From the NCBI GenBank assembly GCA_018649825.1, contig JABIHC010000107.1, positions 1-34,797 on the forward strand: a DNA stretch of 34,797 bases, given 5' to 3'. The position numbers and the translations under genes were made by a program. This document shows positions 3,001-32,056 of the stretch, in pieces. This DNA is from Methanobacteriota archaeon. Lineage in GTDB: Archaea; Thermoplasmatota; Poseidoniia; Poseidoniales; Poseidoniaceae. The first letter of the stretch is position 1, and each line of letters begins with the position of its first letter. The notes beneath the pieces were generated by a model, which saw nothing but the letters and a program-made list of their open reading frames with translations, had not been told where the DNA came from and did no database searches.

Positions 3001-6000
3001 CAAAGTTAATGCACCATCGCCCAAATCCACATCTTCAAGATAATAACTATCATCTGCAAAAATATATGAAGTACTGTAGCCACTTGCATCAACATTGAAA
3101 GCATGGAATGTTTCTGTTCCAGTTGCAGTTGCTCTGCTCTGGGCAATTCCAATTCCACTCTGTGCTGATGAAGATCCAGCAGAAACATTTGACAACATTA
3201 CTACTGGTGTATTGAGCAGGAAGAGGTTCACTGAGGAACCAGATACAGATACATTTTCAATTGAATATGAACCTGCAGTTGCTCCAGCAACACTTGTTAC
3301 AGCACCGTCATTTGCTCCACCTGCAGTATTACAGTTAGTCATAGTACCTTCGTATAGAGAAACTACTGAGTCAGTTGGGAAATTGAAACAACTTCCGCTT
3401 GCGGTATCAACAGCAAAGTTGCTGATATCAAAGACTGAACCGTCTCCACTTCCATGCATTACTGCACTACCAACATTGGTGAATGTTACTTCGTTCATTG
3501 TGAAGTTTCCAACATTGGAGTTTGTGCTTGGTGAACTTCCGTGGCGACTGCCTGCTGCAATTGCTGCATCAGTCGTGTTTGCAAAGTCAACATAATCTAA
3601 ACTATGTCGGTCATCGGTACCGGTTGAACAACCTGCTGTGAAAGCAAGGCCCTTCCATGTTCCGCCATTTTGTCCCTCGAAGAGGATGTGGTCTGTTGAA
3701 TTACCCGATGCTATAAATTTGTCACAACTGCCATCAAAGGAAATTCCCTTGCCAGCTCCGACTTGAATTACCACTCCAGGTTCAATATTTACATCTCCGC
3801 CTATTGAGAGATAATCATTACTCGGGTTAATCCGTATTGGACTGTCAATTAAGTCCCAATTAGCACCATTCGGAAGATCAGAGGTAACGTCCGTACCCTT
3901 GCCTTCAAACGGCATTACTCGATAACGAACACTACAATCTGTGTTAGAGTCATCATAGCAATAGTATGAACTGTAATATCCCCACCATGGAGCAATTAGT
4001 CCAGGTCTTGAAAATGTACTCGAAGCATATGGCAGTTCAGGCATTGTAGAATACCATGTAGTCATTGCTCTTTCGGGAGAAGTTGAGGAAGTACTCTTGA
4101 AGTACATTCCACCGAACCTGCTAATCATCACGCGACTATTTGATTGGCTTCCATTGTATGTTGTGCCAAAGTAATCGAAGTTGAAACCATCAGGCATGTC
4201 AATATTTGCGTCACAACCTGCCTTCCAAGTGTTGTAGTAATAGGAAGATGTGCAGTAGTACGCATATGGATATCCATTGCTTGCACCGGTAATTGCTGTT
4301 TGGTAGTTAACGATATCAATTGCACCGAGGTCAAACGATTCCCATCCGTGGCTGCTACCATCTGTTGCTATTCGGTAATTCACCGTGTGTGGGTTGGCGC
4401 CTGCCATGTAGTCGAGAGATTCACGTAATGTATCACCCTTGGTACGAGTTTGGTCTTGATAACCTACTGTAGCATAGTCATAATATGTTTCACAATTTGA
4501 ATCATATTTGAATTCAATTTCGTTAGTTACATCATAGAATACTGCTTGGAAAGTGCATTCATAGATATCATTACGATATCCAAGATCGTGCCATTCAACT
4601 ACAAACATCTTGTTTGGGTCGCCCACTTCGAAAGAAGTGACTGAACTGGTGTTGGAGTTAGGTCCAGCACTGTCAGAATTGACGTCTTTTGCGAATATTT
4701 TGTATTCTATTGTATCTCCACGTGTTAGCGCATCGACTCCAGTCCCACCAAGTTTAGCAGACCATTCACAAGCATTCAATATACAACTACTACGGCCTAC
4801 ACCAACTGGATTCAAATTCTTTGAATCCCATGAAGAGGCACCCGAAACACGATAGTATAGCGTTGGGCCAACTTCACTAACCTGAGAAACATTTAGTCCG
4901 GTTGGAGGCTCACCTTGATCGCCGATAACAACGCTAATTGTTCGCTCACGCGCGTGGCTATCTAATAGAGGGCTATGGTCCATTTTTGGCCCGCTTCGAT
5001 CTGGCTCAGGTGCGACTTTACTTACTTTAGATGAGGTTGCTCCAGAAGCTGCTTGGCTACCGTAATAACCAGTACCTATTGCAAATCCGGTCCACCTGTA
5101 TGATGTTGAGTATGCATAGTAGTATCCACTTGTGCACATTGGGTTAGAAGAAGTGCTGCGGAAGAAGTAAACGAATCCGTTTGTTCCTTGGCATAGCCAG
5201 TTAGCGCGACTTGAACTGTATGAACCGTTAAAGTCAAACTTACCTACTGTACCATAGATATCGTCTAGTTTAATGTTGAAGGCTTTGGTATATCCGTATG
5301 TTGATCTTGAAGACTCTGTTACTCCGCCTGTCATTGGTTCATCAATTCCAGTTGAAGTATCTAGTCCGACCATTGCCCACTTATTTGCGGAGGAATCATA
5401 GTAATAAATCAGATTCATTCCAGGTCCATTGGCTGCAGATATTGACAAATAACCTCCATCGGCCTGCATCATATCCATACTACCGGACAGTGTTCCGCCA
5501 AATCCATTGTATCCGCCGGATGGGCTGGTTGTCCAGCGCATTGTCCACATTTGGTAGAAGTAATAACTGGTGGTGTAGAAACAACTTTGAGCACCAGTTC
5601 CACAATCAGAAGTGTCAAATTCAAACACGAATTCGTCACTGCTATCATAATAGGTCATTAGTTGGTCAAAGTACTTTTGTGGTTGGTATGATGAGTAAGC
5701 ACTGCGGTCAGTAACCGAGACTTGGAATTTCTTTGCATTGCCTGCATTTGCAACATCACCAATATAGAACCAGTGTGGAGACGTGCTTCCACCACTTGGG
5801 GTAGTTCCTGAGTTTGGTCCGTTTGAACCTGCGTTAAGGTCCTGATAAGACCAGTAATACTTTACGTAGTCATCTGCACTTAATGCAGCAGTTGTAGCCT
5901 TGAATTTACAGGTTGCAACTGATGTTGAACAGGTGCCGACTGAGGTTGCACTAGTACTAGAGTAGGTTCCATTGTTGATGCTGTACATCAACTTTGGTCC

Positions 6001-7710: not shown

Positions 7711-7773
7711 TTTTTTATTTTCTAGGTTCACGTCATCACCTCATACGCTCTGTATGCAAAGCATCCGAGGGCC

Positions 7774-14134: not shown

Positions 14135-14158
14135 AACCCTTTGTGCAGTTTGAAAGCC

Positions 14159-15343
14159 ATGCCAACAATATCTACTGCTGAATTGGTGCGATGCCCTCCA
14201 AGATGGTTGCTCGTTAGAATTGAAAGTAGCGATGGAGAAATCGGATGGGGAGAAGCACTTGGCGACTTACACGAAGAAGTTGAGGCAGCCCTGCAATCAG
14301 CATGCAAAAAAATAATTGGACGCAATATTTCCGAAATTGAACGCCTTCGTCAAGAATTACTTTACGGGCGCTTTTGGCGAGATGGACCAGTATTGAATAC
14401 GGTTGCTGCAGCGATTGAAATGGCTTTGTGGGATATCAAAGGAAAGGCCGCCGGCGCCCCTATTCACGAACTATTAGGCGGGAAAATACGTGAAAAAGTG
14501 CAAGTTTACCGTAACATATGGGGGGGTGGAGCCCAAGAATTTGCAAAATCCGCAGTTGCAGCATTAAATGAAGGAATGACTGCTATGAAAGTGAGTCCTG
14601 TTGGCCCTATTCGAGGTATTGTGAGCGATGCGGACCTTTCGGGGATGGTTGAAATTGTTTCTCAAGTCCGTGATGCCATTGGCAAAGAGGCTAAGTTAGC
14701 AATTGACTTGCATGGGCGTTGTTCTCCTTCGGCAGGAAGGAGGGCGATTTCATTAGTTGCACCTTTTGATCCTTGGTTTGTTGAAGAACCAATGCTACCA
14801 GGAGATGCAAAGGCAATGTCTGAATTGCGCAATCTACGTTGTTCTCAACCAATACCAATTGCCGCCGGTGAACGATTCCTTAACCGGCAAATATCATTGG
14901 ATCATCTCTTCCCAACCCCTGCAATTGATATAATTCAACCAGATATTTCCTTAATGGGCTTGAGGGATACATTTGCAGTTGGCCTTGCTGCTGAAACGGC
15001 TCAAGTTCATCTCGCCCCTCACTGTCCATATGGCCCAATCCAAACTGCCGCAAGTTTGCAAATCGCTGCTGCTTGTCCTTCACACATAGCCCAAGAAGTT
15101 CAATCCCTCGGAGGGGCTGGTTTGCCAGGTGGACGTTCAGGTGATGGCTGGAAATGGGCATTTGAATTAATCAAAAAGCCGTTTGAAATTGAAGGAGGGT
15201 TTGTTTCAGTAAGAAGTGGAGCAAAATATGCCGGTTTGGGAGTTGAAATTTGTGAAGAAAGAATCGGTGAATTTGCTGAACAATGGAATCCACACCCCCC
15301 TACTCTTTGGCACACAGAAGATGGTGCAAGAGCCGAATGGTAA
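14159..15343 (+). CDS. Sugar-acid dehydratase, enolase superfamily (D-galactonate dehydratase-like)
   Basis: A 394-residue mandelate-racemase/enolase-superfamily enzyme. The ATG at 14159 is preferred over an in-frame TTG at 14141. The N-terminal capping domain (1-125) precedes the barrel. The DgoD set of active-site residues is complete: 'IDLHGR' gives Asp183 and His185, 'FVEEP' gives Glu209, 'AAGERF' gives Glu238, 'LAPHCPYGPI' gives His288, and 'AQEV' gives Glu313. These match E. coli DgoD with at most a three-residue offset. The expected reaction is Mg2+-dependent dehydration of D-galactonate, or a close sugar acid, to a 2-keto-3-deoxy acid. D-mannonate dehydratases of the same superfamily have different signatures, so the nearby mannosidase does not by itself assign mannonate. 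It heads the sugar island and no aldolase is next to it. Confidence 0.85.
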   Translation: MPTISTAELVRCPPRWLLVRIESSDGEIGWGEALGDLHEEVEAALQSACKKIIGRNISEIERLRQELLYGRFWRDGPVLNTVAAAIEMALWDIKGKAAGAPIHELLGGKIREKVQVYRNIWGGGAQEFAKSAVAALNEGMTAMKVSPVGPIRGIVSDADLSGMVEIVSQVRDAIGKEAKLAIDLHGRCSPSAGRRAISLVAPFDPWFVEEPMLPGDAKAMSELRNLRCSQPIPIAAGERFLNRQISLDHLFPTPAIDIIQPDISLMGLRDTFAVGLAAETAQVHLAPHCPYGPIQTAASLQIAAACPSHIAQEVQSLGGAGLPGGRSGDGWKWAFELIKKPFEIEGGFVSVRSGAKYAGLGVEICEERIGEFAEQWNPHPPTLWHTEDGARAEW

Positions 15344-15608: not shown

Positions 15609-16436
15609 ATGCCCTACTTACGACTCGCCCCCCTCATGCCTCGCATTATCATCACTGGGTCTTGTGGCCTAATTGGTGGCTTGGTATATGATGCGTTGAA
15701 AGAATTGGGTCACGAAGTTTTTGGCATTGACAGGCCACACTCTGACCGTATTTCTCGTGGCAGGAATATCGATGACAAAGAGGCGCTAAATCGCCTTGAC
15801 CTCGCCTTAGATATCTCCACAATTAGTGTTAATAGTTTAGCAAAAATATTCAAAGGCCATGATCAAATCATTCACTTAGCAGCCGATGCAGACCCTTCTA
15901 ATTGGGGTCGTTCAATGCTTGAAGTTAATATCGTCGGCACCCATACCGTTCTAAAAGCAGCAAAGCAAGTCGGCATTAAACGAATTGTTATTGCATCATC
16001 CGGCCTTTCCCAAGTTACCTTAGAGAGGCAGTTAATTGAGGGAGGTAATCTTCACGGCAAACTAATTGGAATTGAGGATGGAGTCGGAATTGATTCACCT
16101 TATGGCTTGAGTAAAATTGTTGGAGAGGAACTCGGCAGGGCATTTGCATCATCCAGCATGGAAGTAATTTCTGTTAGAATAGGCACAGTTATCCCTGATG
16201 ACACTGAACATGTTCGCCGCGGTGGCCGACTTATGGCAACTGCATTTTTGCAACAGGATGTGATAAATTTCTTCATCGCAGCGACCCACAATGAACTTCC
16301 AGCAAACCAATACTTCCTTCTCACCGCAGCCCAATCAAACTCTCCGACCCGATTCGTAGATTTAGAACCAGGATTGTCCTCACTTGGTTGGACGCCACTT
16401 GATTGGCAAGAATGGTTAAGCGTTTATGAGGGGTGA
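15609..16436 (+). CDS. NAD(P)-dependent sugar epimerase/dehydrogenase, uronate-dehydrogenase-like SDR
   Basis: A 275-residue extended short-chain dehydrogenase. The nucleotide-binding motif is 'TGSCGLIG', followed by 'GIDRPHSD'. Catalytic Tyr-x3-Lys is in 'YGLSKIVGEE'. The following 'VRIGTVIPDD' and the C-terminal 'LGWTPLDWQEW' resemble bacterial uronate dehydrogenase (Udh), which oxidises hexuronates to aldaric lactones. An NDP-sugar epimerase is the main alternative, but the protein is short for that group. Next to a sugar-acid dehydratase, a sugar-to-lactone dehydrogenase fits best. The start is uncertain: the ATG at 15609 follows GGAGGGG closely, while the ATG at 15636 (MPRIIITG) would remove an odd 9-residue extension. 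The 265 bases upstream hold no recognised gene. Confidence 0.75.
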   Translation: MPYLRLAPLMPRIIITGSCGLIGGLVYDALKELGHEVFGIDRPHSDRISRGRNIDDKEALNRLDLALDISTISVNSLAKIFKGHDQIIHLAADADPSNWGRSMLEVNIVGTHTVLKAAKQVGIKRIVIASSGLSQVTLERQLIEGGNLHGKLIGIEDGVGIDSPYGLSKIVGEELGRAFASSSMEVISVRIGTVIPDDTEHVRRGGRLMATAFLQQDVINFFIAATHNELPANQYFLLTAAQSNSPTRFVDLEPGLSSLGWTPLDWQEWLSVYEG

Positions 16437-16505: not shown

Positions 16506-17909
16506 TTGAGCCTCGTATTGGCTATTGATGTCGGCACAAGTTCTGTTAAACTTCTCTTAACTAACGGAAAAAGATTCGAAAAACTTCATGCCTTTCTCAC
16601 GCCCTTTCCTTCAGAAGGTGACTCCGATGGAATCATTGACTCACGCGATTATCTCGACTCTATTTGGAAGGGAATTAGAGAGTGGCTGATTGAAGCGTTG
16701 CCAAAGGGAAAAAAAATAACCAAAGTTGGAATTACCAGCCATATTCAAAGTGCCCTTCTCGTGACAAAAACTGGTCAGCACTTTGCCCATATGCACCGTT
16801 GGGACCATCCCATTGATTCTGCAGTTACAGATGATTTTATTTCACAATTTAACGGAAAGTGGCCCGGTCTTGGAATGAGTTCTGTTTTGAATCCAAGGGG
16901 AAGTTGGATGCCAATGCGACTTCGCAATTGGGCCTTGACTTATCCCGAAGCCGGAAAAATAATTTATCAGAATGGCGGTTATGCATTACAAGTAAAAGAC
17001 GCATTAAACTACGACCTTTGTGGAGTTTTTGCTAGTGATGCACGTTCAATGCGGGGCTGGCTAAACTTTGAAAATGAAGTTAATGCTCAACTTAGTTCAT
17101 GGGTGGGATTGGGTGATATTTGCCCACCTATTCTTGAACCGCAGGAAACTCTTGGGGAGGTGAATGATTTTGGCAGCGAAATCAGTGGGATTGACGAAGG
17201 AGTGGAAGTAATAGTTGGTTGTGATGATTTTTCCGCTGGAATTCATGGTTTTGCATCCCGCACTGGAACTCTGCTTAATATGGCAAATACAACTGAACAC
17301 TTGGCAGTAACCTTGTCTGATAAAAAATCGTTTGTTGCTCAACAGCACGCTACGGAAACCGGTTTGTCATATCTGCCAAAAAATGGCGATTTAGAAGCCG
17401 TACTATATTGCTCAACCGCAAGTGGAGGGATGACATTAAAAATGTGCTTACCAAGAATCAAGGGGTTTCCATTTGAAGAAGTTGGATGGGATGAAGAAGG
17501 GTATATTGCTGCACTATATTGGCTAATTGATATCATGGGAGAGCGGCCCGAAAACGGTGTTGATGCTGAGATTGGTTTTGATGCTGAGATATTTACAAAG
17601 CGCGGACTGAAGCCATCAGCAAAACATATTGGTGGCTGGGACGGAAACCCTTCCATACTTAACCCAAGAGAGCAAGCATGGATGATTTTTGAAGGCCTTA
17701 TTGATTCGCTACACCCAATTAGAGTCGCCCTTCTGCCATTTACAAATGAGGGCCGACCAGTAAAGATCGGCGGAGGCTTATCTATGATAGGACCCGTGTT
17801 GGAAAGCAGAGCCGCCCGTTGGCCTCAAGGGATTGAGGTTGTGGCGACAAGAGAAATAAGCGCAAGAGGAATTTGTCGATTGTTGGGGATAGAGGTTGAA
17901 ATTGACTGA
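16506..17909 (+). CDS. FGGY-family carbohydrate kinase
   Basis: A 467-residue ATP-dependent sugar kinase using a TTG start; no nearby ATG preserves the ATP-binding opening 'LAIDVGTSSVKLLL' (phosphate-1 loop). Further FGGY marks are 'DALNYDLCGVFASDARSM' (substrate domain), 'VGCDDFSAG' with the presumed catalytic base Asp240, 'NMANTTEHLAVTL', and the C-terminal 'IGGGLSMIGPVLESRAA' (adenosine loop). Length is slightly below the usual 480-520 residues. Members phosphorylate xylulose, ribulose, gluconate, fuculose, glycerol and others; the substrate cannot be read off here. It sits 47 bases before the polyol dehydrogenase-like gene, so kinase and dehydrogenase probably act on connected intermediates. 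Confidence 0.87.
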   Translation: MSLVLAIDVGTSSVKLLLTNGKRFEKLHAFLTPFPSEGDSDGIIDSRDYLDSIWKGIREWLIEALPKGKKITKVGITSHIQSALLVTKTGQHFAHMHRWDHPIDSAVTDDFISQFNGKWPGLGMSSVLNPRGSWMPMRLRNWALTYPEAGKIIYQNGGYALQVKDALNYDLCGVFASDARSMRGWLNFENEVNAQLSSWVGLGDICPPILEPQETLGEVNDFGSEISGIDEGVEVIVGCDDFSAGIHGFASRTGTLLNMANTTEHLAVTLSDKKSFVAQQHATETGLSYLPKNGDLEAVLYCSTASGGMTLKMCLPRIKGFPFEEVGWDEEGYIAALYWLIDIMGERPENGVDAEIGFDAEIFTKRGLKPSAKHIGGWDGNPSILNPREQAWMIFEGLIDSLHPIRVALLPFTNEGRPVKIGGGLSMIGPVLESRAARWPQGIEVVATREISARGICRLLGIEVEID

Positions 17910-17956: not shown

Positions 17957-19156
17957 ATGAAAGTTGTCATTTTCGGCGCGGGCAAAGTAGGGAGAGGTTT
18001 TCTTGCCGATTTGTTTTCACGAGCAAAATGGGATATTAGCCTTGTTGAAGTAATACCAAACACCCTTAACCTTCTAAATAATGAAGGGGAATGGAACTTA
18101 ATTCGTCTCAAAGATGAACCTGAAATTATTACAATTAGCGCGACAAACATTATTGATGGAAATAATCAAACGGCAGTAGATTTGGCCATTCAGTCGGCTG
18201 ATTTGCTTTGTACCGCAATTGGCGGTTCGCACTTAGAAAAATGGGCTATTTCGGCATTTATGCCACTAATGCAAAGAGTTGAAAGGGGAAAAATCGATAT
18301 CATTTTTGCTGAAAATCATGCACAACCGGCTGAATTAGTTCGCAATACACTGCAAAAACAACTGATGCAATTGTCCGACAAGAATGCCGAGGAAAAATTG
18401 TTTGCAAACCTTGGCCTCGCCCAAGCGCAGATATTACGCTCTTGTATTGAGCCGAGTGCTGAGCAAATTACAGAATATGGAAAGTTAACCTTGCGAGTTC
18501 AAGACCATGATATCCTCCCGCTTGATGCAGATGCCCTTACTTCGCCCGAATTGCTGAAAGATGTTCCTGGACTAAGGCCAACTCACAATTTTTCCCTTGA
18601 ATTAACGCGAAAAGTTTTCACCTATAATGCGATAAATGCAGTAGTTTCCTATCTTGGCTCCATAAGAAACTATGATTTTTTGGCTGATGCAGCAAATGAT
18701 GAAGAAATTGCATTAATTGCCAAAGCGAGTGGTCTTGAAGCGAGTAATGCGCTTATTTCCTCCTTTGGATTTGCGCGTGATGAGCAAATTGCTTGGGCGC
18801 AGCGAGCATTAGCAAAATATCAGGACCGCAGAATTGTTGACCCCATCGACCGCCAATGCCGCGACCCGATTCGCAAACTTGGAGTAAACGATCGTCTTCT
18901 CGGACCGATACTTCTTGCGATAAAATTAGGATTGCCGTGCGCTAATCTTGCAATAGGTATGGCTGCAGCCCTTGCTTATGAGCCAAGCGAAGAGGAGAAA
19001 ATACGTGACCCTACTTATGCAAAACTTTCGGAAATGCGGCAAGAGTCTAACTCAAAAATAGTAGCAACGCTATGTCCCAATGTGTCTGATGTTACAAAAA
19101 AAGCACTTGAAAATGTGCTTGCTGAAGGGCAGAAAAGCCTTACCAATATGAATTGA
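17957..19156 (+). CDS. Mannitol-1-phosphate 5-dehydrogenase-like polyol dehydrogenase
   Basis: A 399-residue member of the polyol-specific long-chain dehydrogenase family. The Rossmann N-terminus is 'MKVVIFGAGKVGRGFLADLF', close to the MtlD opening. The catalytic region 'TRKVFTYNAINAVVSYLG' places Lys219 and Asn224 in the family K-x4-N-x2-H motif, but the final His is Asn227 here. The C-terminal 'RDPIRKLGVNDRLLGPILL' and 'GLPCANLAIGMAAAL' blocks match MtlD. The expected reaction is NAD+-linked interconversion of a polyol (phosphate) and a keto-sugar (phosphate). GGGGGG lies just before the ATG. It directly follows the FGGY kinase gene. The substrate may differ from mannitol-1-phosphate, given the changed residue. 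Confidence 0.85.
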   Translation: MKVVIFGAGKVGRGFLADLFSRAKWDISLVEVIPNTLNLLNNEGEWNLIRLKDEPEIITISATNIIDGNNQTAVDLAIQSADLLCTAIGGSHLEKWAISAFMPLMQRVERGKIDIIFAENHAQPAELVRNTLQKQLMQLSDKNAEEKLFANLGLAQAQILRSCIEPSAEQITEYGKLTLRVQDHDILPLDADALTSPELLKDVPGLRPTHNFSLELTRKVFTYNAINAVVSYLGSIRNYDFLADAANDEEIALIAKASGLEASNALISSFGFARDEQIAWAQRALAKYQDRRIVDPIDRQCRDPIRKLGVNDRLLGPILLAIKLGLPCANLAIGMAAALAYEPSEEEKIRDPTYAKLSEMRQESNSKIVATLCPNVSDVTKKALENVLAEGQKSLTNMN

Positions 19157-19315: not shown

Positions 19316-22024
19316 ATGACGAAGAAAAGCGCAACCGCTATGCTCGCAGCCGGATTCATGATGTTGGTTCTTAATTTAGCAGTAATTGGCCCCGTTGCAA
19401 CCTCTGCAGTACAGGATGCAGTTGATGATGCAATGGTCAAAACGGCAGAAAATACTTGGGAAAATGATGATTGGATTGATAGTCAAGACAGTAGAACTTA
19501 TTACGCCTTTGGATTAACTAATTTGGAAGAAGTAAATAATGGTTCAGATCCAATTTTTGAGAAGCAGGGGCCTTTTTCTTATGACATTGAAACCCATAGT
19601 ACATTCATTTCTCATGATGAGGTTGAGGGCACGCTAACATACTCTTCCAATTCAATATTTACCTTTGCTGAAGGAGAGGATCCAAGTGCACAGATTACCC
19701 AAATGAATATTCTATATGAGGCGCAAAGAGTTGCAGTATTCCCATCAATGATGAGTACATTTGGCGATATTGCTGGTGCTGGTTTCATGTCTGAAGTGTT
19801 GAAGGAAGACCTCAGTACGACTCAAGCCGCAATACGTACCGGTCAGGTGATTACTCAAGCCATCGCTGATTCCGGCAATTCTTCAAATGTTGGTAATGCT
19901 GCCTTTGTTTCTTGGGCTAATGCAACAAATTACTCCGGCCCAGATGCTGATTTCACCGACCTTGACTACGCATTCCTAAATGCAGACGATGGAGCCGGAG
20001 TTGACATCTCCCTTACCGGCCGAGTTGGAGCAACTTTGTTCATGGGAATGGGTGTGCCAAGCAATGAAACTAGCCCCGCAAGAGCTGCGCTCTTCGGTTA
20101 TGCTGATGTTGATGCAAATCTTACATCTGCACGAGATAACGCCCTATATTCACTTGTAGGAACTAATTATGCTGCCTTCGGAGGGGGAACTTCTTGGGAC
20201 ACAGCATCAGAGGAAGAACTTGAAATTCGCATGGAGGCTCTTTTTGGGGTGCCATTTGGATTGGGTTTTGATAAGACTATTACCAATTTGCTCACTCATA
20301 ATGATAGTACTTCTGACCCAGACGGACTTCTCGCTTGGTCTGAAGACGGCTTATTGCCTGGGTTGGCAACTTTCTTTTCAACCGCTCCAGTAAATCCAGC
20401 ATGGACTTTCCTTGAATTCGGAATAACCTATCCGCAAATCCTAGCCCTTGGAGATTGGGCGACTGCACTCTCAGAGGACTCTACTGGAGTTCCAATGGTT
20501 TTACTCGGAGGTAGTGGTCTATTAACACAATCAGAATGGTGGATTGCGACATGGGGTGGAGTTGACCCTCTGAATGGAGAGATCAATGATATTGGAGTCA
20601 ATAGTTTCACCCGTTTGCCGTGGTATGATTTAGAGCCAGTTTCATGGGATGAATCCACTGTTGATTATGTGATGAATGGACCATTTGGTCTTGCCACTAG
20701 TGCATCAATTTACACAATATATGGCATCTTTGCAAACCGTACTGTACCAGTTGATTCCGACCAGAACTCCTCTACCTACTTACAACCGGTGATTGGTGGT
20801 GATGAACTGCCCTTTACCGATGAAATTATTGGCGCTTATTACAACATTAGTGTTGATGATGCAGCAGTTCTTCGCAATTACATTGAAAATATGTTTGATG
20901 GCGTATTGCCGATGTTCTTGGAGCACTTTTTTGGAGTAACAAAGTGGTCAACTCATTCCGTCAATGAATGGTTATTTGGCTGGCATGACCCACTACTTGC
21001 ATATAGTGCTGCAACTGAAGCAGGAGAAACTAACATGGCTGCTGCAATGGCCGACATGTCAGTTGGATGGGCAAGTCTTGAATCAAACAAAACTTATTTC
21101 GGCAGTGAGCATCTTGACGATGATGGAAACTTAGTCTCTGTAAATCTCAGTGAAAGTGAGCACACAATTTACACCGGAGAAACAGACCTCTCGTTGGTCG
21201 GAGAATATGTCGCTTTCAACGGAAACCCTGAACTGTGGTGGAGGACAACTGAGCACTATAATGCCACATACGGTCTTTCACCAATAGAGATGATGGATGG
21301 CACTACCGGCGGATTCGTTGATGGCACAAATTACGACCCTGAAAACCCCCCTTCTTTCACATTGAACCTTGCGGACTACGCAATTGTTACCGCAAATTAT
21401 GAAGGCAAAGGAGAATTACACGGAATGGAAGTTGAAGTTTGGTCTGCGAACCTTGACCCTACTGAGAGAAGCGTACAACAGAAATTGATTGACAGTAAGA
21501 CAATCATGGATGTATTACCGGGCGGCTTGCCGATATACTTCGGTTCAGAAGTTACTTTGATGACTGAATCGGTGACTGGGAAAATTGTCAGCGGCGACTC
21601 GAAATCTTTCTTTTATCTTGACTTGAGGGGACTTGGGGCTGAAAATCCAACCATGGATGATCTACAACCGGTATTCGAAATCAACCGTTTTGCTCAAGCC
21701 GAAAAAGAAGATGTTGAATTTATTGAGAATAGTTTACATGCAAACCAAGATCCAATGACATATTGGATGAATTTTGACACTGGTGCTGATGCATTCTTTA
21801 TTGACTATATCACATTACTATTCTATCTCGGCGGCATTATTTTGATTGGCCTGAGTGGATGGAAATTTGTCATGATAACCGAAGATGAGGTGAAAAATTT
21901 CACCGAGGCTACCGGTGCAATAATTGATGTTGCAGAGGCGGTAGAAGCGGCAATGAACACAGACGATACTGAAGCCGATGAAGTTGATGAAGAACCAGCA
22001 ATAGACAACTCGGATGATAATTAG
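19316..22024 (+). CDS. Two-TM ectodomain protein resembling the CD36/LIMP-2/SR-B scavenger-receptor family
   Basis: A 902-residue protein from the ATG after an in-frame TTG. Topology is N-terminal TM (about 8-29), a long extracellular part, C-terminal TM (831-854) and an acidic cytosolic tail, the layout of CD36. Blocks in CD36 order: 'AFGLTNLEEVNNGSDPIFEK' then 'QGPFSY' (about 64-89; CD36 has a 'NPEEV...GPYTYR' block), 'EGTLTYSSNSIFTF' (about 104-117), 'SVNEWLFGWHDPLLA' (548-562; CD36 'LRELLWGYRDPFLS'), 'YVAFNGNPELWW' (631-642; 'IDTYKGKRNLSYW'), 'MMDGTTGGF' (659-667; 'INGTDAASF'), and 'ANYEGKGELHGMEVEVW' (CD36 'VNLKGIPVYRF'). An extra segment of nearly 400 residues sits where CD36 has its short apical helices. 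There are no cysteines, so the CD36 disulfides are absent. Several N-x-S/T sequons occur. CD36 proteins bind and pass lipids; the role here is unknown. Its neighbours are sugar genes. Confidence 0.72.
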   Translation: MTKKSATAMLAAGFMMLVLNLAVIGPVATSAVQDAVDDAMVKTAENTWENDDWIDSQDSRTYYAFGLTNLEEVNNGSDPIFEKQGPFSYDIETHSTFISHDEVEGTLTYSSNSIFTFAEGEDPSAQITQMNILYEAQRVAVFPSMMSTFGDIAGAGFMSEVLKEDLSTTQAAIRTGQVITQAIADSGNSSNVGNAAFVSWANATNYSGPDADFTDLDYAFLNADDGAGVDISLTGRVGATLFMGMGVPSNETSPARAALFGYADVDANLTSARDNALYSLVGTNYAAFGGGTSWDTASEEELEIRMEALFGVPFGLGFDKTITNLLTHNDSTSDPDGLLAWSEDGLLPGLATFFSTAPVNPAWTFLEFGITYPQILALGDWATALSEDSTGVPMVLLGGSGLLTQSEWWIATWGGVDPLNGEINDIGVNSFTRLPWYDLEPVSWDESTVDYVMNGPFGLATSASIYTIYGIFANRTVPVDSDQNSSTYLQPVIGGDELPFTDEIIGAYYNISVDDAAVLRNYIENMFDGVLPMFLEHFFGVTKWSTHSVNEWLFGWHDPLLAYSAATEAGETNMAAAMADMSVGWASLESNKTYFGSEHLDDDGNLVSVNLSESEHTIYTGETDLSLVGEYVAFNGNPELWWRTTEHYNATYGLSPIEMMDGTTGGFVDGTNYDPENPPSFTLNLADYAIVTANYEGKGELHGMEVEVWSANLDPTERSVQQKLIDSKTIMDVLPGGLPIYFGSEVTLMTESVTGKIVSGDSKSFFYLDLRGLGAENPTMDDLQPVFEINRFAQAEKEDVEFIENSLHANQDPMTYWMNFDTGADAFFIDYITLLFYLGGIILIGLSGWKFVMITEDEVKNFTEATGAIIDVAEAVEAAMNTDDTEADEVDEEPAIDNSDDN

Positions 22025-22131: not shown

Positions 22132-25038
22132 ATGGCGAAGGCACCGGCTCGCAAATCTACTGCCTCGGCCAAAGAGAATTTTAGCAACAAAAACAGTGCT
22201 GCACCTTTGATTGGTTATGTCACACCTCACGTTCATTGGGACCGTGCATGGTATCTTCCATTCCAGCAATACCGCTATCGTTTGATTGAATTCGTTGATG
22301 AACTATTGGCATTATTGGAAGACCCTGATTCAAATTATCCCTCATTTGAATTTGATGGCCAAACTGTAGTTCTAGAAGATTATTTAGAAATTAAACCAGA
22401 GAATCGCCAGCGAATTGAAAAACTCGTCAAAGATGGAAAATTAGGTGTCGGGCCTTGGTATGTATTGCCCGATGAGTTCATTGTGGGAGGGGAAGCATTA
22501 GTTCGCAACCTCCAATTCGGATATCGTATTTCAGAGGAATTTGGCGGACGCTGCAATATTGGATATGTGCCTGACCCGTTTGGTCATGTCGGTCAACTTC
22601 CCGCAATATTGCAAGGGGTTGGCTTGGACACTTTCCTTTTTACCCGCGGTGCAGGACAGTGGGTAGGTGAAGCGGGATGCGTTTTTGATTGGATTGCTGC
22701 CGATGGTAAAACCTCTGTATTGGCCGTAAAGCAAACTCCAGATTACCCCTGCCTTATGGCATGGGGGTTTGAGATTCGTCAATTGGACCGGAAGTCTAGT
22801 CCTGATGTAAATGTCGAAAGTGCAATGGGTCGGCTTCAACGCCTCCTTGATGGCCTAGAAAATACCTACAATTGGACCGCACCTGTTGTTCAGTTGGGTA
22901 ATGGATCTGACCATACCGCACCTCAACCAACTTTACCTATGTTGATTGAAAAGGCAAATGAGCATTTCAAGGGAAAAATCAATTTACAGCATGCTCGTTT
23001 TTCAGATTTCTTTGATGCCATAAAAGAGTGGAAATCTCAGCGAATTGCCGATGGCAACCCCCTTGTTGAATTCCAGGGTGAATTGCACCAAGGCTGGGAC
23101 CGTGCATTACTCTCAGGCGTTTACAGTGCCCGCCTCTATCTCAAAAGAATGAACGATGCTACAATGAATGTTCTTTATGACAGAGTAGAGCCATTGGCGG
23201 CACTGGCATGGAATATGGGTGGCCGCCCCCGCCCCGATGCCTTACAGTTGGCATGGCGCGAAGTATTACGCAACCACCCACATGACGACATTTGTGGTTG
23301 CTCAGTGGATGCTACACATCAAGACATGGAGATACGCTACCGCCACGCAAGAGAAATTTCAACGATGCTCGTAGAAGACCTTAGAGAAGATATTCAACCG
23401 TTATTTGACCTCCATCATGAAAACCCAGATGCAGTTCCTTTCCTACTGCATAACCCTAGACCCACAAATTGGTCGGGAACTTTGAATTTGAATCTGGTCG
23501 TCCCAAAGACGGGAGGATGGTTGGAAAGAGATTTTGCTTTTGCCGTATTGGCTGATGGAGATGGTTTACTCAATGCCACTGCAGAAATTACCGCACCTTC
23601 ATGGGGATTACATATTCACCCTGATAGAGTTGCAAATGTTCAATTGCCAAGAGTCAAAGGTTCAATTGAAGTTAGTGGTTTGGAACCCGGTTGGCATGTT
23701 GCCCACTTATTGCCTGGCCTTGAATTCCCACTTCCCCCTGGTGATGCAGTTCGTTGCAGTGAGGGAGATGATTCAGCAAGTCGCTGGATGGAAAATAGTC
23801 TGATAAGAGTAGTTTTCCGAGATGATGGCAGATGGGATATTATTGATTTGTCAACTGGACGTACTTTTGTTGGTTTAGGTCAACTCGAAGATGACGAAGA
23901 AGCCGGAGATTCGTACGACCATAGCCCTGGCGGATATCCAGTAGCAGTTGGTGCTGGAAAGGACGTAGGATTGGATGAGAGGCCAGAACCAGTTGATCGC
24001 AGAAACACTCATACTGTCGAAGATAGCGATATTATCGTTAATTTGGATTGGTCTGTCACCAATCAATGGTCTGCTACAATGCATATTCAAATTGAATGGT
24101 CATTACCAACATATTTTGAAGATGAAACCCAAAAACGCAGTGCTCAACAAGAATGGGTTTCAATTGAGCATTGGGTTACTATGAGGTCGGCATCACCTGT
24201 TCTAGAAATAGAGACCATCATAGACAATAGTGTGGAAGACCACCGGACAAGAATTATTGTCCCTACTGGAGTTAACTCAAAAACCGTCACTGCCGGTGGA
24301 GCATTTGAAATGGTTGAACGTCCATGGTTTTTCCCGCATGTCAAAGAATGGAATCAGCCTGAAGTTCCAACTAAACACATGCATAATCTTGTTCTTGCTG
24401 AAGATGAGGAGGGTGGATTAGCGGCTTTCGCACCAGGTTCAAACGAGTATGAAGCGAGAGAGGGTGAGGATGGAGGGCTTGATTTGTGCCTTACTTTGGT
24501 TCGTAGCGTCGGTTGGCTTTCTCGCGATGGTTTTGCTTGGCGCAGAAATCGTGCTGGACCTTGTTTCCCTGCACCCGGTGCTCAATGTAACGGACAAAAT
24601 ATGATGCGCTGGGGCCTAATGCCCTTTGAAGGTAAATGGAGTAATTCACAATTAACTGCAAATGGAGATGCCGTTCACGAAATTGCGGCTAGTTTTGCTT
24701 CGCGACCCACAATAATCGCCGGACTGCCTAAGCCACAACTCGATGCATCCTTTGACCCATTACCAAACAGTGGAAAACTTGGCACACGACACCAATCGTG
24801 GATTCTTGAAGGGGCAAAACCAAAACCAATTCTGGTATCTTGCAAACCATGTGAAAATGGCGAAGGATATGCGATGAGATTTTTTAACCCAACTGCAACT
24901 AATTGGCATGGAAGTCTTGAAGATAGCAATGGATTATCCACTTTTTGCAGTGACATGCTGGAAAGAGTTACTGAAGAATGTAAAAAGGGGGATATTACAA
25001 TCCCTGCTGGCGGAATTGCCACATATGTCATGAGGTGA
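22132..25038 (+). CDS. Alpha-mannosidase, glycoside hydrolase family 38
   Basis: A 968-residue GH38 enzyme. The catalytic domain starts 'TPHVHWDRAWYLP', giving the zinc ligands His35 and Asp37. 'GYVPDPFGHVGQ' holds the nucleophile Asp148. 'NHPHDDICGCSVDATH' carries the third zinc ligand His384, and its wording is typical of prokaryotic family members. The helical middle domain is at about 310-420 and the beta-rich GH38 C-terminal domain at about 500-960. It hydrolyses terminal alpha-mannosyl residues with retention. The N-terminus is basic and lacks a signal peptide (MAKAPARKSTASAKENF), so the enzyme is probably cytosolic and acts on imported oligosaccharides. It is translationally linked to the DUF2817 gene, which starts 4 bases later. 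Confidence 0.95.
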   Translation: MAKAPARKSTASAKENFSNKNSAAPLIGYVTPHVHWDRAWYLPFQQYRYRLIEFVDELLALLEDPDSNYPSFEFDGQTVVLEDYLEIKPENRQRIEKLVKDGKLGVGPWYVLPDEFIVGGEALVRNLQFGYRISEEFGGRCNIGYVPDPFGHVGQLPAILQGVGLDTFLFTRGAGQWVGEAGCVFDWIAADGKTSVLAVKQTPDYPCLMAWGFEIRQLDRKSSPDVNVESAMGRLQRLLDGLENTYNWTAPVVQLGNGSDHTAPQPTLPMLIEKANEHFKGKINLQHARFSDFFDAIKEWKSQRIADGNPLVEFQGELHQGWDRALLSGVYSARLYLKRMNDATMNVLYDRVEPLAALAWNMGGRPRPDALQLAWREVLRNHPHDDICGCSVDATHQDMEIRYRHAREISTMLVEDLREDIQPLFDLHHENPDAVPFLLHNPRPTNWSGTLNLNLVVPKTGGWLERDFAFAVLADGDGLLNATAEITAPSWGLHIHPDRVANVQLPRVKGSIEVSGLEPGWHVAHLLPGLEFPLPPGDAVRCSEGDDSASRWMENSLIRVVFRDDGRWDIIDLSTGRTFVGLGQLEDDEEAGDSYDHSPGGYPVAVGAGKDVGLDERPEPVDRRNTHTVEDSDIIVNLDWSVTNQWSATMHIQIEWSLPTYFEDETQKRSAQQEWVSIEHWVTMRSASPVLEIETIIDNSVEDHRTRIIVPTGVNSKTVTAGGAFEMVERPWFFPHVKEWNQPEVPTKHMHNLVLAEDEEGGLAAFAPGSNEYEAREGEDGGLDLCLTLVRSVGWLSRDGFAWRRNRAGPCFPAPGAQCNGQNMMRWGLMPFEGKWSNSQLTANGDAVHEIAASFASRPTIIAGLPKPQLDASFDPLPNSGKLGTRHQSWILEGAKPKPILVSCKPCENGEGYAMRFFNPTATNWHGSLEDSNGLSTFCSDMLERVTEECKKGDITIPAGGIATYVMR

Positions 25039-25042: not shown

Positions 25043-26158
25043 ATGTATTGGTCAAGAGACCATGCCGGTGCAACTGGCAAATTAATTGTTGCAATTGATG
25101 GATTGGAGAGCCGTGGTTTTTCAGTGAACCACCAACGACATGAAATAGGTCAACTTGGACCTCATGATGAAAATTTGGCGATCGATACTGTTTGGATTGG
25201 ACCGCCAAATGCAAAGAAATTACTTCTTTCAACTTCTGGAGTTCATGGAGTTGAGGGATTTGCCGGTTCAGCAATCCAATTGAGCCAAATTGCCGACCTC
25301 AAGGCACCAAGTGACATACCGGAGGATACCGCCATTGCCTTTGTCCATGTAATGAATCCGTGGGGAATGGCATGGTTGCGGCGCGTCAATGAGTCAAATG
25401 TTGACCTTAATCGTAACTTCTTAAAGAAAGGTGAAGAATACTCTGGTGAACCGCAAGGATATGCTAAATTAAGCCCCCTTCTCAACATTAAGAAATACCC
25501 TAAACCACTTGAACCATTTATTCTCAAGGCCTATTTATACACTCTAAAAAATGGCTATAATAAAACCAAGCAGGCCTTTGCCGAAGGACAATATAGGCGA
25601 CCAAAGGGATTGCAATTTGGTGGCTTCAAACTGGAAAAAGGGCCACAGATACTCCTCAATTGGCTTGAAGAAAATTTGACCCATGTGGAACAATGTAATT
25701 GTATTGATTTACACACAGGGCTTGGCAAATCAGGCAAGGATACTTTACTTGTTGACATTGATGTTAATTCACCCCGATTCACCCAACTAAAACAACGGTT
25801 TGGAGAAAAAATTACCGGCTTGGATAGTGGTTCTGGTGTGGCTTATAGCGTAAGAGGAGGGATTCACTGCGGAGTGGAAGATAGATTTCCTAACATTGAA
25901 TGGGCTGGAATTACCCAAGAATTTGGAACTATCAAACCATTTCCACTGATAAAGGCGCTACGAGCCGAAAATTGTATCACTTGGTGGTCAGAACTGACAC
26001 CTCAACAATTACTTATTCATAAGAGCAGACAAAAACTGCTCAGCGCTTTTAGAGTAGATGAGTTAAAATGGGAGAGGTCGCTCATTGACAATGGAAAGAG
26101 GCTATTCAACCTCGCATTAGCAGATTTACAAACTCAAAATGAAGGAAAGACTAGGTAA
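25043..26158 (+). CDS. DUF2817 family M14-like zinc hydrolase
   Basis: A 371-residue protein with zinc-carboxypeptidase-like marks: 'SGVHGVEGFAGSA' (His68 and Glu71, first zinc ligands), 'NVDLNRNF' (Asn/Arg substrate-binding motif), 'CIDLHTGLGKSGKDTL' (His224, third ligand) and 'ITQEFGT' (Glu293, presumed catalytic acid/base). This is the pattern of DUF2817 proteins, which belong to the M14 carboxypeptidase/aspartoacylase fold. No signal peptide is visible, so it is presumably cytosolic. It could trim peptides or deacylate an amide. Tight coupling to the alpha-mannosidase suggests a substrate carrying both sugar and amide or peptide bonds, such as glycopeptide fragments; that is inference. 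Confidence 0.85.
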   Translation: MYWSRDHAGATGKLIVAIDGLESRGFSVNHQRHEIGQLGPHDENLAIDTVWIGPPNAKKLLLSTSGVHGVEGFAGSAIQLSQIADLKAPSDIPEDTAIAFVHVMNPWGMAWLRRVNESNVDLNRNFLKKGEEYSGEPQGYAKLSPLLNIKKYPKPLEPFILKAYLYTLKNGYNKTKQAFAEGQYRRPKGLQFGGFKLEKGPQILLNWLEENLTHVEQCNCIDLHTGLGKSGKDTLLVDIDVNSPRFTQLKQRFGEKITGLDSGSGVAYSVRGGIHCGVEDRFPNIEWAGITQEFGTIKPFPLIKALRAENCITWWSELTPQQLLIHKSRQKLLSAFRVDELKWERSLIDNGKRLFNLALADLQTQNEGKTR

Positions 26159-26185: not shown

Positions 26186-27067
26186 ATGGCAAAGGAAATA
26201 AAAGTACGCGCACCTGTAAGAGTTGATTTGGCAGGAGGGTGGACCGATTGTGCTCCTTTCACAAATGACAAAGGGGGCGAAGTAGTTAACTTTGCAATTA
26301 ATCAATATATTGAGGCGAATATGAAAATTGATGATGAGGGGCGGCTTTCAGTCGCTTATTCATCAGACTGTCCAGTTTCAAGTGGACTTGGCACCAGTGC
26401 AGCAATGAATGTTGCTTTTCTTTCAGCTATTGCTGGAGAAGGACGCAGTGATGTTGAAATTGCCGAGTTGGCTTATCGATTTGAAGAATTACTCGGCAAT
26501 CGCGGCGGCAGGCAAGACCAATGGGCTGCTGCCGGAGGAGGCTTTCAGCATCTAATGTTCTATGGCGATAATGTCGAAAGACTTCCTTTTGAGCCAGCAC
26601 CCAGCGCTTTGCGCTGGTTGAAAAAACACCTCATTCTCGCTTACACAAATGTCACCCATAACAGTGGAGAACTACACAATAGTATTTGGCAGAGATATGA
26701 CGAGGAAGATGAAGAAGTTCATTCGGCATTAATGACTCTTAGAGAAATGGCAAGGCAAGTTGCAGGAGCACTCAATTCTGACCGCAGAAATGACCTAATT
26801 GATGCAATCAGACAGGTATCAGCAGCGATAGAAAAAATGTCGCCCGAACTTAATGCACCTTATCGAGAAGTCGTTGACCCATTAACCGAAGCAAAATCTA
26901 TTCTTGCGTGGAAAGGCATGGGGGCTGCAGCAGGTGGAACTATCGGGATAATTTCCAACCACGATAAGCAAAAGGAAATAATCGCCGCCTGTGAAAGTGC
27001 TGGATGGACTATTCTAGACTGGGACTATGACTCCGAAGGCTTGATTCGTAGCGAGAATAATTCTTGA
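26186..27067 (+). CDS. GHMP-family sugar kinase (L-fucokinase / heptose-7-phosphate kinase-like)
   Basis: A 293-residue kinase. It opens 'KVRAPVRVDLAGGWTDCAPF', matching the sugar-recognition block of fucokinases and HddA-type heptose kinases ('APxRxxxAGGxTD'). The ATP loop is 'PVSSGLGTSAAMN' (63-75). 'GNRGGRQDQWAAAGGGF' supplies the region with the catalytic Asp, and 'KGMGAAAGGTIGI' is the C-terminal GHMP motif. It should phosphorylate the anomeric hydroxyl or another hydroxyl of a hexose or heptose. It follows the DUF2817 gene by 27 bases and ends the plus-strand sugar island, converging on the next gene with 4 bases between stops. The exact sugar is not determined. Confidence 0.88.
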   Translation: MAKEIKVRAPVRVDLAGGWTDCAPFTNDKGGEVVNFAINQYIEANMKIDDEGRLSVAYSSDCPVSSGLGTSAAMNVAFLSAIAGEGRSDVEIAELAYRFEELLGNRGGRQDQWAAAGGGFQHLMFYGDNVERLPFEPAPSALRWLKKHLILAYTNVTHNSGELHNSIWQRYDEEDEEVHSALMTLREMARQVAGALNSDRRNDLIDAIRQVSAAIEKMSPELNAPYREVVDPLTEAKSILAWKGMGAAAGGTIGIISNHDKQKEIIAACESAGWTILDWDYDSEGLIRSENNS

Positions 27068-29347: not shown

Positions 29348-32056
29348 TTGGGTTGGTCCGTGTCCAGCAACCGAGTATCCATATTGGCGATGGTGATTTT
29401 ATTCACCTTCTCTCTTGGTTCTGGCTTCGTTGAACCCTCAACCACCTCCCAATGGAGTGAACAACAGGATAATTCAAATCATTATTTTGTTGTAAATGAC
29501 GATGATAACGTTTCAAGAAATACTGGCGGTGAGGTATCGGTTTCTGCAAAAGAAGGGGAAATGCCCGAAGTTTGGCCGGAAGGAGTTAATGCCTACGACA
29601 ATATGGTTAGCATGACCAACTTCGGTTATCGAAAAATAGATACTGCCGCAAATGAAAATGCCCGCAATTGGATAGCAGGTGAATTGACTGACATGGGTTA
29701 TGAGGTTGAACGGCAGCCATTTACTACTGACGAGTGTACGAATTGTGAAAACATTGTGATAACTATCAATGGAAGTCTTAGCGACAGTTGGTATGTAGTC
29801 GGTTCGCACCACGATGCGATTTGTTATTCACCCCCACCTCTTGTAGGAGTGACTTACACGGGTTGTTCTTCATCGGGAGCATATGATGATGGAACTGGCA
29901 GCGGTTCGTTACTTGAAATTGCAAGAGCCATTTCTCAATGGAACGGCACCCCAACTCATACTTGGAAATTAGCATGGTGGGATTATGAAGAATGGCAAGG
30001 CTCATCTTCAAGCGAAGGTGGAGGCAAGGGTAGTCTAAACTTTGTTGAAAATTATATTCCCGAAAACATAAATGTTACCTATGTCAATTTGGATATGTTT
30101 GGACTAAACTGGCCAGTACAGACTCCTTCAGCAAGCCAAATGAGTGGTTGTGACGAGGATTATTGGACCCTATATGAGTTCACCTCACCCACCGATGATT
30201 GGTCCTATTATGAGGACAGAGGTTTGGAAGTCACCGAAGAAATGCAAAGCCGAGCAGAATGGTTTCAGGGTGAATTAAGAGATGTAAATACTAATCTTTC
30301 TCACCCCGAGCCTTGGGTAAATGTTATTGATGATACAAAGGGGAATTCTGATCATTTCAATTTTATTATGAACGGGCACACTGCCACCTGGCTGCGCGGC
30401 CAACATCAATACATTATGGAAGAAGGTGATTCTTGCGAACAGACACCTAAACACGCTCAAACCGATTCTGTGACCACTATCAATACGATGGCCGGTGGGC
30501 GTGCGAATGTAGAAGCTGGACTTCAAACGGGAATAGATATTGTTGCCACTTTAGCTTGGTGGGATTGGTCAAATCAAACAACTGATGATAACGGAACAAT
30601 AACCGATAGCGCTGCTGGCACTTCTGAAATCGGCCTTACCACCATTGCAATATCATTATTGGTAATTATTGTTGCACTAATCGCCATGACCGATATCACC
30701 AAAAAACGCAATATTCAGCCCTTTGATTTGGGCGAAAATGAACGCTTCCGCACACTCTGGTTCCTCATTTTTTACCTCGGATTCTCAATGCCATTTGCAT
30801 TCTTTGGTTATTGGGGTAGAACTCTAGGCATGGCGGAATTTGGCCTTGACAAATTCACCGTTATGGCAATGTTCATGGTTGTGCAAATTCCGTTCTTCAT
30901 GCGCCCACTATGGGCCCAACCTGTTGACCGAATGCAAAGTCTGCCAATGGGTAAGCGTCGCACTTGGATGCTATACGGCTCAATTGGCCATATGATTCTA
31001 TTATTGCCTCTTATTTTCATTGACATTTCCAATCAGCCTTGGATATGGATTGGTTTCCTAATGATTGCTCTAATACCTCGACTATTCGCTGAGCAAGCGG
31101 TTGCGGCGATGATGGCTGAAAGTGTACCGCAACTGGGTAAGGCCAATTCTATGATTAATTTGTCATATAGAGGAGGTGGGCATCTTGTCCTCATTCTATT
31201 GGGTTGGTGGATTGCAGGTGGTGAATCATCTCCTTTCATCACTGATGGAGTTACCAATTTCGCCGCCGTTCAGTATGCAATGTTTGTAGTATTACTTCTC
31301 GCAATGATTGGTGGAATTGCTATTACCCACATGATGCGAGAAGGTGAGGAATTACCGAAAGCCAAAAAGAAAGATCCATTCCCCGAAGGAACTTCTTTCA
31401 AAGATAAAGTCTTAGCAGCAATGCAAACTAAAACCGCTTGGTTAGTCTTATTTGGCTGTATATTACTTCCACTAGGAGATGGTTTTGAGGCTTGGTTTTC
31501 GGCATACTTGGTCGAGGTGCAAAATATGGATGGGGCAGAAATAACCCGCTGGTGGAATATTTTTGCCGTGGTAAATTATCTTGGACTTGCTGGACCTTGG
31601 GTTTCAGACATTTTTGGGCGAAAGCGAATGCTTCGCCTCTATGCGCTAGGCTCTGTTGTTGCATACCTAGCCCTTGGATTCAGCATGTTAATGGGAATGT
31701 CGGGTATCATTACCATAATGATTTGGATTCCAACATTAGTTCTTACCGATTGGATGATGTTCACCTTCATCACCACTTGGGCAGACATTGCCGACCCACG
31801 CCTTGGCGCCACACACATGTCGGTATTCCAAACCGCCCATGCCCTTTCTGCAACATTCGTAATGGTTGGCTTGGGCGGTCTGCTCCTCGTAGCGAGTAAT
31901 GATGCTTATTGGTTATTATTCATGCTCGCTGCCGCTGGACCTGCTCTTGGGTGGTGGATATTTAGCAACCTCAAACTTGCCGATGAAGATATGGGCACTG
32001 ACCAATGGCAACCCAATTTCCTACGATTATCTACTGAGAATGCGAAAACTGAGTGA
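29348..32056 (+). CDS. M28-family metallopeptidase fused to an MFS-type transporter
   Basis: 902 residues counted from a TTG at 29348; GTG at 29360 or ATG at 29390 are possible starts. A signal/anchor helix (about 10-28) precedes an extracellular M28 peptidase domain (about 90-400) with all five zinc ligands and the general base: 'GSHHDA' His154, 'AYDDGTGSG' Asp180, 'DYEEWQ' Glu214 (base) and Glu215, 'NLDMFG' Asp249, 'KHAQTD' His369. A TM helix at about 432-454 leads into a transporter-like half (about 463-885) of some 10-12 helices, with 'PVDRMQSLPMGKRRTW', an MFS-style basic loop, and a second 'VSDIFGRKRMLR' loop after the central cytosolic linker (about 660-690). The likely role is aminopeptidase cleavage outside, with the product handed to a permease. 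ERMP1-type M28 multi-TM proteins are an alternative comparison, but the two DR-x-GKRR loops favour MFS. Confidence 0.87.
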   Translation: MGWSVSSNRVSILAMVILFTFSLGSGFVEPSTTSQWSEQQDNSNHYFVVNDDDNVSRNTGGEVSVSAKEGEMPEVWPEGVNAYDNMVSMTNFGYRKIDTAANENARNWIAGELTDMGYEVERQPFTTDECTNCENIVITINGSLSDSWYVVGSHHDAICYSPPPLVGVTYTGCSSSGAYDDGTGSGSLLEIARAISQWNGTPTHTWKLAWWDYEEWQGSSSSEGGGKGSLNFVENYIPENINVTYVNLDMFGLNWPVQTPSASQMSGCDEDYWTLYEFTSPTDDWSYYEDRGLEVTEEMQSRAEWFQGELRDVNTNLSHPEPWVNVIDDTKGNSDHFNFIMNGHTATWLRGQHQYIMEEGDSCEQTPKHAQTDSVTTINTMAGGRANVEAGLQTGIDIVATLAWWDWSNQTTDDNGTITDSAAGTSEIGLTTIAISLLVIIVALIAMTDITKKRNIQPFDLGENERFRTLWFLIFYLGFSMPFAFFGYWGRTLGMAEFGLDKFTVMAMFMVVQIPFFMRPLWAQPVDRMQSLPMGKRRTWMLYGSIGHMILLLPLIFIDISNQPWIWIGFLMIALIPRLFAEQAVAAMMAESVPQLGKANSMINLSYRGGGHLVLILLGWWIAGGESSPFITDGVTNFAAVQYAMFVVLLLAMIGGIAITHMMREGEELPKAKKKDPFPEGTSFKDKVLAAMQTKTAWLVLFGCILLPLGDGFEAWFSAYLVEVQNMDGAEITRWWNIFAVVNYLGLAGPWVSDIFGRKRMLRLYALGSVVAYLALGFSMLMGMSGIITIMIWIPTLVLTDWMMFTFITTWADIADPRLGATHMSVFQTAHALSATFVMVGLGGLLLVASNDAYWLLFMLAAAGPALGWWIFSNLKLADEDMGTDQWQPNFLRLSTENAKTE

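Follow-up and report, generated by a model that had tools for sequence, protein, structure and literature searches.

A CD36-superfamily protein with an enlarged apex domain in Poseidoniales archaea

The stretch of DNA analysed here (the window, 34,797 nucleotides) carries a run of co-directional genes on the plus strand between 14141 and 27067 (Table 1). Inside this run lies an intronless open reading frame of 902 codons, unbroken from the ATG at 19316 to the stop at 22024, with an in-frame TTG three bases upstream of the ATG. Its product is a CD36-superfamily protein, and the gene sits in a conserved sugar-catabolic cluster. The gene order from the epimerase to the GHMP kinase is kept in the source genome (G000) and in G125, G027, and G457, which together are four species from two genera. 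In g7 the kinase and dehydrogenase regions make up one ORF. No ABC transporter was found in the run. The N-terminus of the GH38 protein has no evident signal peptide, and thus this enzyme is likely to act inside the cell. Between the two genera, the CD36 proteins are about 50% identical while the GH38 proteins are about 67–68% identical, indicating that the putative receptor evolves faster than the enzyme.

Other ORFs in the window were also recorded. At 29348–32056 (+), an ORF of 902 aa joins an N-terminal M28 peptidase (PF04389) to a C-terminal MFS-like half and is an apparent peptidase-transporter fusion; its relatives adjoin the focal cluster in G125 and G027. At 1–7731 (−) there is a surface-protein ORF of at least 2577 aa, rich in Tyr and Ser and with a TM-like N-terminus, which is cut by the contig end.

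Table 1. Genes of the co-directional run and parts of the focal protein, in positions of the window.
Feature	Position	Strand	Evidence
Enolase-superfamily sugar-acid dehydratase-like, nearest galactonate dehydratase	14141..15343	+	PF13378/PF02746; NF010624 1.6e-86, below cut-off
NAD-dependent epimerase/dehydrogenase	15609..16436	+	PF01370; syntenic in G125, G027, G457
FGGY-type sugar kinase	16506..17909	+	PF00370
Mannitol-1-phosphate 5-dehydrogenase-like	17957..19156	+	PF01232/PF08125; NF002646
CD36-superfamily protein (focal), 902 aa, TM–ectodomain–TM	19316..22024	+	PF01130, PDB profile search, Foldseek, dN/dS
N-terminal transmembrane helix, aa 5-33, preceded by MTKK (inside)	19328..19414	+	Hydropathy; model helix 2-30
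N-terminal CD36 block, aa 47-140, GP(F/Y)xY, first barrel strands	19454..19735	+	PF01130 positions 3-134; LIMP-2 and CD36 in PDB
Apex insert, aa 141-504, mostly helical	19736..20827	+	Model; Poseidoniales-wide conservation; no PDB relative; dN/dS 0.17
Middle CD36 block, aa 505-660	20828..21295	+	Second PF01130 stretch, profile 159-257; PDB block match LIMP-2 only, E 0.13
C-terminal barrel block, aa 676-815, five long strands and a membrane-proximal helix (predicted)	21341..21760	+	Model strands 690-794; dN/dS 0.02
C-terminal transmembrane helix, aa 825-852	21788..21871	+	Hydropathy; model helix 824-852
Acidic cytoplasmic tail	21872..22021	+	Model confidence low toward its end
GH38 alpha-mannosidase/mannosylglycerate hydrolase-like	22132..25038	+	PF01074 3.2e-37; NF007331 3.4e-112, below NCBIfam cut-off
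DUF2817 (M14-like) protein	25043..26158	+	PF10994 1.1e-78
GHMP sugar kinase, heptose-7-P kinase/fucokinase-like	26186..27067	+	PF00288; NF049969

The focal protein matched Pfam PF01130 in two stretches (E = 5.1e-20, 71.8 bits, cut-off 26.5), and all 36 family members sampled matched this profile individually. The only other Pfam match was a sub-threshold one to PorA/LmcA (PF11271, 18.6 bits, cut-off 29.5) at aa 691–779, within the C-terminal barrel block; weak PF11271 matches were seen in 4 of the 36 members. When the single focal sequence was searched against the PDB with phmmer, LIMP-2 was found at E = 0.25 only. A profile of 72 archaeal proteins (A2), searched against 177,635 distinct PDB sequences, found LIMP-2 (1.4e-5) and CD36 (2.3e-4) in two colinear blocks, and nothing else in that set at E ≤ 1. 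By sequence, significance is reached for the N-terminal block. The SVNEWLFGW block stands where the CD36 order predicts it, and a profile of the middle block alone found no PDB protein other than LIMP-2 (E = 0.13). The C-terminal block had no match in a general PDB search. When this block was compared directly with the C-terminus of CD36, with the letters of the latter taken as in the PDB record, it scored 5.7 bits. Scores as high came from 3 of 5000 shuffles (p about 6e-4) and from 3 of 1482 real decoys, and the alignment falls at the expected place, just before the second transmembrane helix. The assignment of the C-terminal block rests mainly on the structure and on this directed test.

The AlphaFold2 model of the focal protein was built with 72 sequences (pLDDT 81.5, pTM 0.71). 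Foldseek matched it to 13 PDB entries at E ≤ 1e-3, and all of them were LIMP-2 or CD36. The best match was LIMP-2 (E = 3.5e-8, probability 1.00, TM-score 0.60–0.62 on target). The LIMP-2 alignments span 810–820 columns (about 815), and thus extend across the apex insert. In the structural alignments with LIMP-2, those of the second model below included, sequence identity is low (about 9–16%). The next four matches were Mycobacterium LmcA (E about 5e-3, probability 1.00), with nothing credible after them, and no viral fold matched the focal protein. The homologue encoded on the MG-II chromosome CM001443.1, which is 32% identical to the focal protein, was modelled as well (pLDDT 86.2). This second model matched the same two families first, over about 300 columns only and with TM-scores of 0.36–0.41 on target.

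The low identity to LIMP-2 and the weak single-sequence phmmer result could speak for another explanation, namely that the protein is not a CD36 relative and the similarity is chance or convergent, or that the contig is a eukaryotic contaminant in the MAG. However, profile, predicted fold, and block order agree and point to no other family, and therefore membership in the CD36 superfamily stands. The focal ORF encodes a member of this superfamily in the SR-B arrangement, with a large ectodomain between two TM helices, and its barrel core is CD36-like in the predicted fold. The original prediction had claimed a CD36/LIMP-2-like homologue in an archaeon, to be checked by a PF01130 search and a structure superposition and to be given up if there were no profile match and no CD36 core. 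The claim held. Both checks were favourable with LIMP-2/CD36 as top matches, and the refuting outcome was not met, although the tunnel was not measured. The two terminal transmembrane helices that it had named (about aa 5–33 and aa 825–852) are supported by hydropathy and the model, and the two strings that it had quoted, SVNEWLFGWHDPLLA (aa 548–562) and FNGNPELWW (aa 634–642), are both present inside the middle CD36 block. Its claim of at least six ectodomain blocks in CD36 order held only in part, with the N-terminal block significant, the middle one in order at the E value given above, and the C-terminal one mainly structural. The apex insert had gone unmentioned.

This insert of about 365 residues separates the first and second CD36 blocks, where LIMP-2 has about 25 residues. 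CD36-type proteins have a three-helix apex bundle, and the apex modelled here is largely helical but enlarged. Its mean column identity across Poseidoniales is 37%, and a PDB sequence search found no relatives of it. Since lineage-specific apex expansions are known in eukaryotic SR-Bs (PMC10715195), the archaeal insert may, by analogy, be an archaeal version of the same tendency.

Relatives of the focal protein were found in 168 of 194 Poseidoniales genomes and in 18 of 21 genera, so the survey of this order that the original prediction had called for found the gene in nearly all genera. Neither PF01130 nor the 72-row profile found relatives in the rest of the Thermoplasmatota sampled, and six genomes from another family of this class were likewise negative with the 72-row profile. 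The 14 named control genomes all stayed below the PF01130 cut-off, and other phyla were covered by these controls only. The family is absent from genera g6 (4/4 genomes) and g18 (5/5 genomes). The simplest reading is that it was present in the Poseidoniales ancestor and was lost later in these two genera. A scan of one genome per species gave 225 relatives. The best of them were retained (78 loci) and confirmation was by the focal protein, so remote relatives could not show. The titles of these loci are nearly all Poseidoniales or Euryarchaeota, with one Rhodobiaceae. The latter (L105, CALDQY010000126.1) is a MAG titled Rhodobiaceae bacterium with a Poseidoniales contig, and is probably mislabelled or mixed.

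Carriers include the MG-II chromosome CM001443.1 and several records without a MAG label (AH-287-P07, AH-273-O19, AH-273-F07, and AG-404-A19), which we take to be single-cell genomes from their names. Eukaryotic contamination was ruled out because the family is spread over so many genomes and the gene order is conserved across species. With the chromosome, the apparent single-cell genomes, the conserved flanks, and the lack of introns also against it, the explanation by chance likeness or contamination is all but excluded. A viral origin was ruled out as well, with no relative on a viral contig and no viral fold match. No plasmid-borne relatives were found.

A maximum-likelihood tree of 41 proteins groups the focal gene with those of G125 and G027 in a deep clade (support 100/99), which also takes in the long-branched G145 protein (support 97/96). 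The focal gene thus stands apart from the rest of the family as a deep paralogue. The source genome also has a standard paralogue, apparently split over two contigs (C49 and C175). The remaining tree largely tracks the two GTDB families, except for a second copy in g14. In this Thalassarchaeaceae genus (L042, L043, and L048), the second CD36 copy is of the Poseidoniaceae type and lies head to head with the resident copy, an arrangement that suggests a transfer between Thalassarchaeaceae and Poseidoniaceae.

Two further claims of the original prediction concerned composition. The focal protein has no cysteine, as predicted, and none is found in its clade (G000, G125, G027, and G457). The archaeal family has a mean of 8.9 Cys with conserved Cys columns, so the lack of cysteine is a trait of this paralogue clade only and not of the archaeal family. 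The sequon-rich surface held weakly. The ectodomain has 13 sequons while shuffles have 7.7 ± 2.4 (p about 0.03), which is only a slight excess.

Compared with its nearest orthologue (Guaymas_26, 96% identical), the focal gene has a dN/dS of 0.115 over 838 codons. The C-terminal barrel block has the lowest ratio (0.02), followed by the middle block (0.07), the N-terminal block (0.14), and the apex (0.17). Purifying selection thus acts on the gene, with the barrel most constrained and the apex least. The Guaymas_26 orthologue (G125, L077 8400–8680) has a short deletion and a frameshift at the second transmembrane helix, which may be real or an assembly error. The protein might be an adhesin or a receptor without transport, in which the variable apex would hold cells on particles or phytoplankton and the barrel would be a mere scaffold. 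The apex evolves fastest, its size varies within the family, and in eukaryotes ligand sensing has been linked to it (PMC10715195). However, the strongest constraint is on the barrel, which is more than a scaffold seems to need, and we consider this explanation unlikely.

The neighbours of other CD36 genes differ. Many Thalassarchaeaceae have a TctA-type gene, an HGSNAT-like acyltransferase, and an M60 (enhancin-type) peptidase nearby. In L052, L060, and other Thalassarchaeaceae loci, the acyltransferase and the peptidase occur near CD36 in conserved order. In some Poseidoniaceae the neighbour is a pyruvate kinase, and further loci have AIM24 or an acyltransferase together with CO-dehydrogenase-type genes. 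The sugar link is therefore limited to the focal paralogue, and other clades have unrelated neighbours. An MMPL/patched-like transporter gene with a sterol-sensing-domain match lies near CD36 in L065 (12833–15598, −) and L074 (4008–6596, −). A systematic MMPL link was dropped since it was seen in two loci only.

We propose that the focal protein is a surface receptor that captures an amphiphile and delivers it to the membrane by way of a tunnel, and that its ligand here is probably a mannosylated glycolipid or glycan. We favour this reading with a probability of about 0.6. Homology, predicted fold, architecture, distribution, selection, and synteny are established; the tunnel, the ligand, and the direction of transport are inferred. 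Anchoring in the membrane at both ends would place the ectodomain outside the cell, and the enlarged helical apex would capture the ligand from seawater or from a particle. The beta-barrel core would form a hydrophobic tunnel down to the membrane, by analogy with LIMP-2, SR-B1, and CD36 and with LmcA/PgfA. Cholesterol transport through the LIMP-2 tunnel has been published (PMC6684646), and in the bacterial relative PgfA/LmcA cavities as well as binding of a trehalose monomycolate analogue have been described (PMC8972800, PMC9678360). For the focal paralogue we suggest a glycan or a lipid with a sugar part as the ligand, with mannose the most likely sugar, because the gene sits in the conserved sugar-catabolic cluster with GH38, and this mannosidase-like enzyme would process the sugar inside the cell. 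For Marine Group II, degradation of proteins, of fatty acids, and partly of algal oligosaccharides has been described (PMC6336850), a substrate range that fits a glycolipid or glycan. The nearby MFS-type protein (29348–32056) counts against the receptor reading, as it could possibly be the true sugar importer. The original prediction had suggested lipid or glycolipid scavenging, which remains plausible without ligand data; the distribution of the gene is not matched by that of acyl-CoA dehydrogenases. Genera without the family retain these enzymes, which argues against a simple tie to fatty acids and against an essential role in the envelope, and a link to beta-oxidation is unsupported.

Another possibility is envelope-lipid trafficking as in LmcA/PgfA, in which the cell's own lipids or lipid-linked glycans would be moved through the space beyond the membrane without nutrient uptake. 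In favour of this, LmcA ranks directly behind LIMP-2/CD36 in the structure searches, the weak PF11271 matches occur in the family, the family is near-universal in Poseidoniales and mostly outside substrate operons, and the MMPL/patched-like gene close by in two genomes recalls PgfA-MmpL3. On the other hand, the family is missing from all sampled genomes of g6 and g18, whereas PgfA is essential. Moreover, an MMPL gene is not a regular neighbour, and the focal paralogue keeps company with catabolic genes. We consider envelope trafficking less likely than the uptake receptor.

The CD36/LIMP-2 family is not confined to eukaryotes, which bears on its origin. A bolder reading, which we regard as no more than possible, is that the CD36 tunnel fold predates eukaryotes and that LmcA-type proteins, archaeal SR-Bs, and eukaryotic SR-Bs form one prokaryotic lipid-handling family. 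The SR-Bs of eukaryotes would then be of prokaryotic origin, or would go back to an exchange with marine archaea early on, and the Poseidoniales paralogue would have become a receptor for glycan or glycolipid catabolism. The opposite, a single ancient transfer from a marine eukaryote to the Poseidoniales ancestor, is not excluded, and the present data do not decide the direction of transfer. The Poseidoniales family provides an outgroup or a transfer partner for the origin of these receptors. Poseidoniales have no cultured isolates and have been described as the archaea that are most abundant in surface seawater (PMC8821943), and for them the family offers a candidate uptake receptor. It also brings a new apex domain, and the two genera without the gene amount to a natural experiment. 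In the open-access literature that we searched, no PF01130-positive branch from archaea with two TM helices and an apex of its own is mentioned; an earlier mention elsewhere remains possible, and these proteins may well already carry automatic Pfam labels. The fold and the family themselves were already known.

Among known systems, LIMP-2/SCARB2 and CD36 are closest, sharing the TM–ectodomain–TM layout, the N-terminal and middle blocks in the same order, the predicted barrel, and the best PDB match. The focal protein differs in being archaeal, in its length of about 900 aa (theirs is about 480), and in an apex domain without relatives. Its clade has no cysteines, and thus the conserved ectodomain disulfides of metazoan SR-Bs are not in the focal protein; moreover, the archaeal C-terminal block is unrecognisable by general sequence search. 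The original prediction had described the family as known mainly from animals and other eukaryotes, which must be qualified, since a bacterial structural relative, LmcA/PgfA (MSMEG_0317, PF11271, formerly DUF3068), was already known from mycobacteria and corynebacteria. LmcA/PgfA also has a CD36-like asymmetric barrel with cavities, but it is smaller, has no helical-bundle apex, and works with MmpL3 in mycomembrane lipid traffic. Corynebacterium glutamicum, the only LmcA/PgfA carrier among the control genomes tested, has a PF11271 match and no PF01130 match. The SR-Bs of oomycetes, ciliates, and Dictyostelium (PMC10715195) likewise combine a conserved barrel with lineage-specific expansion of the apex, and the focal ectodomain is within the length range reported there for non-metazoan SR-Bs (413–2294 aa). 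That survey is of eukaryotes only and does not mention archaea in its text, and the archaeal apex has a conserved sequence of its own.
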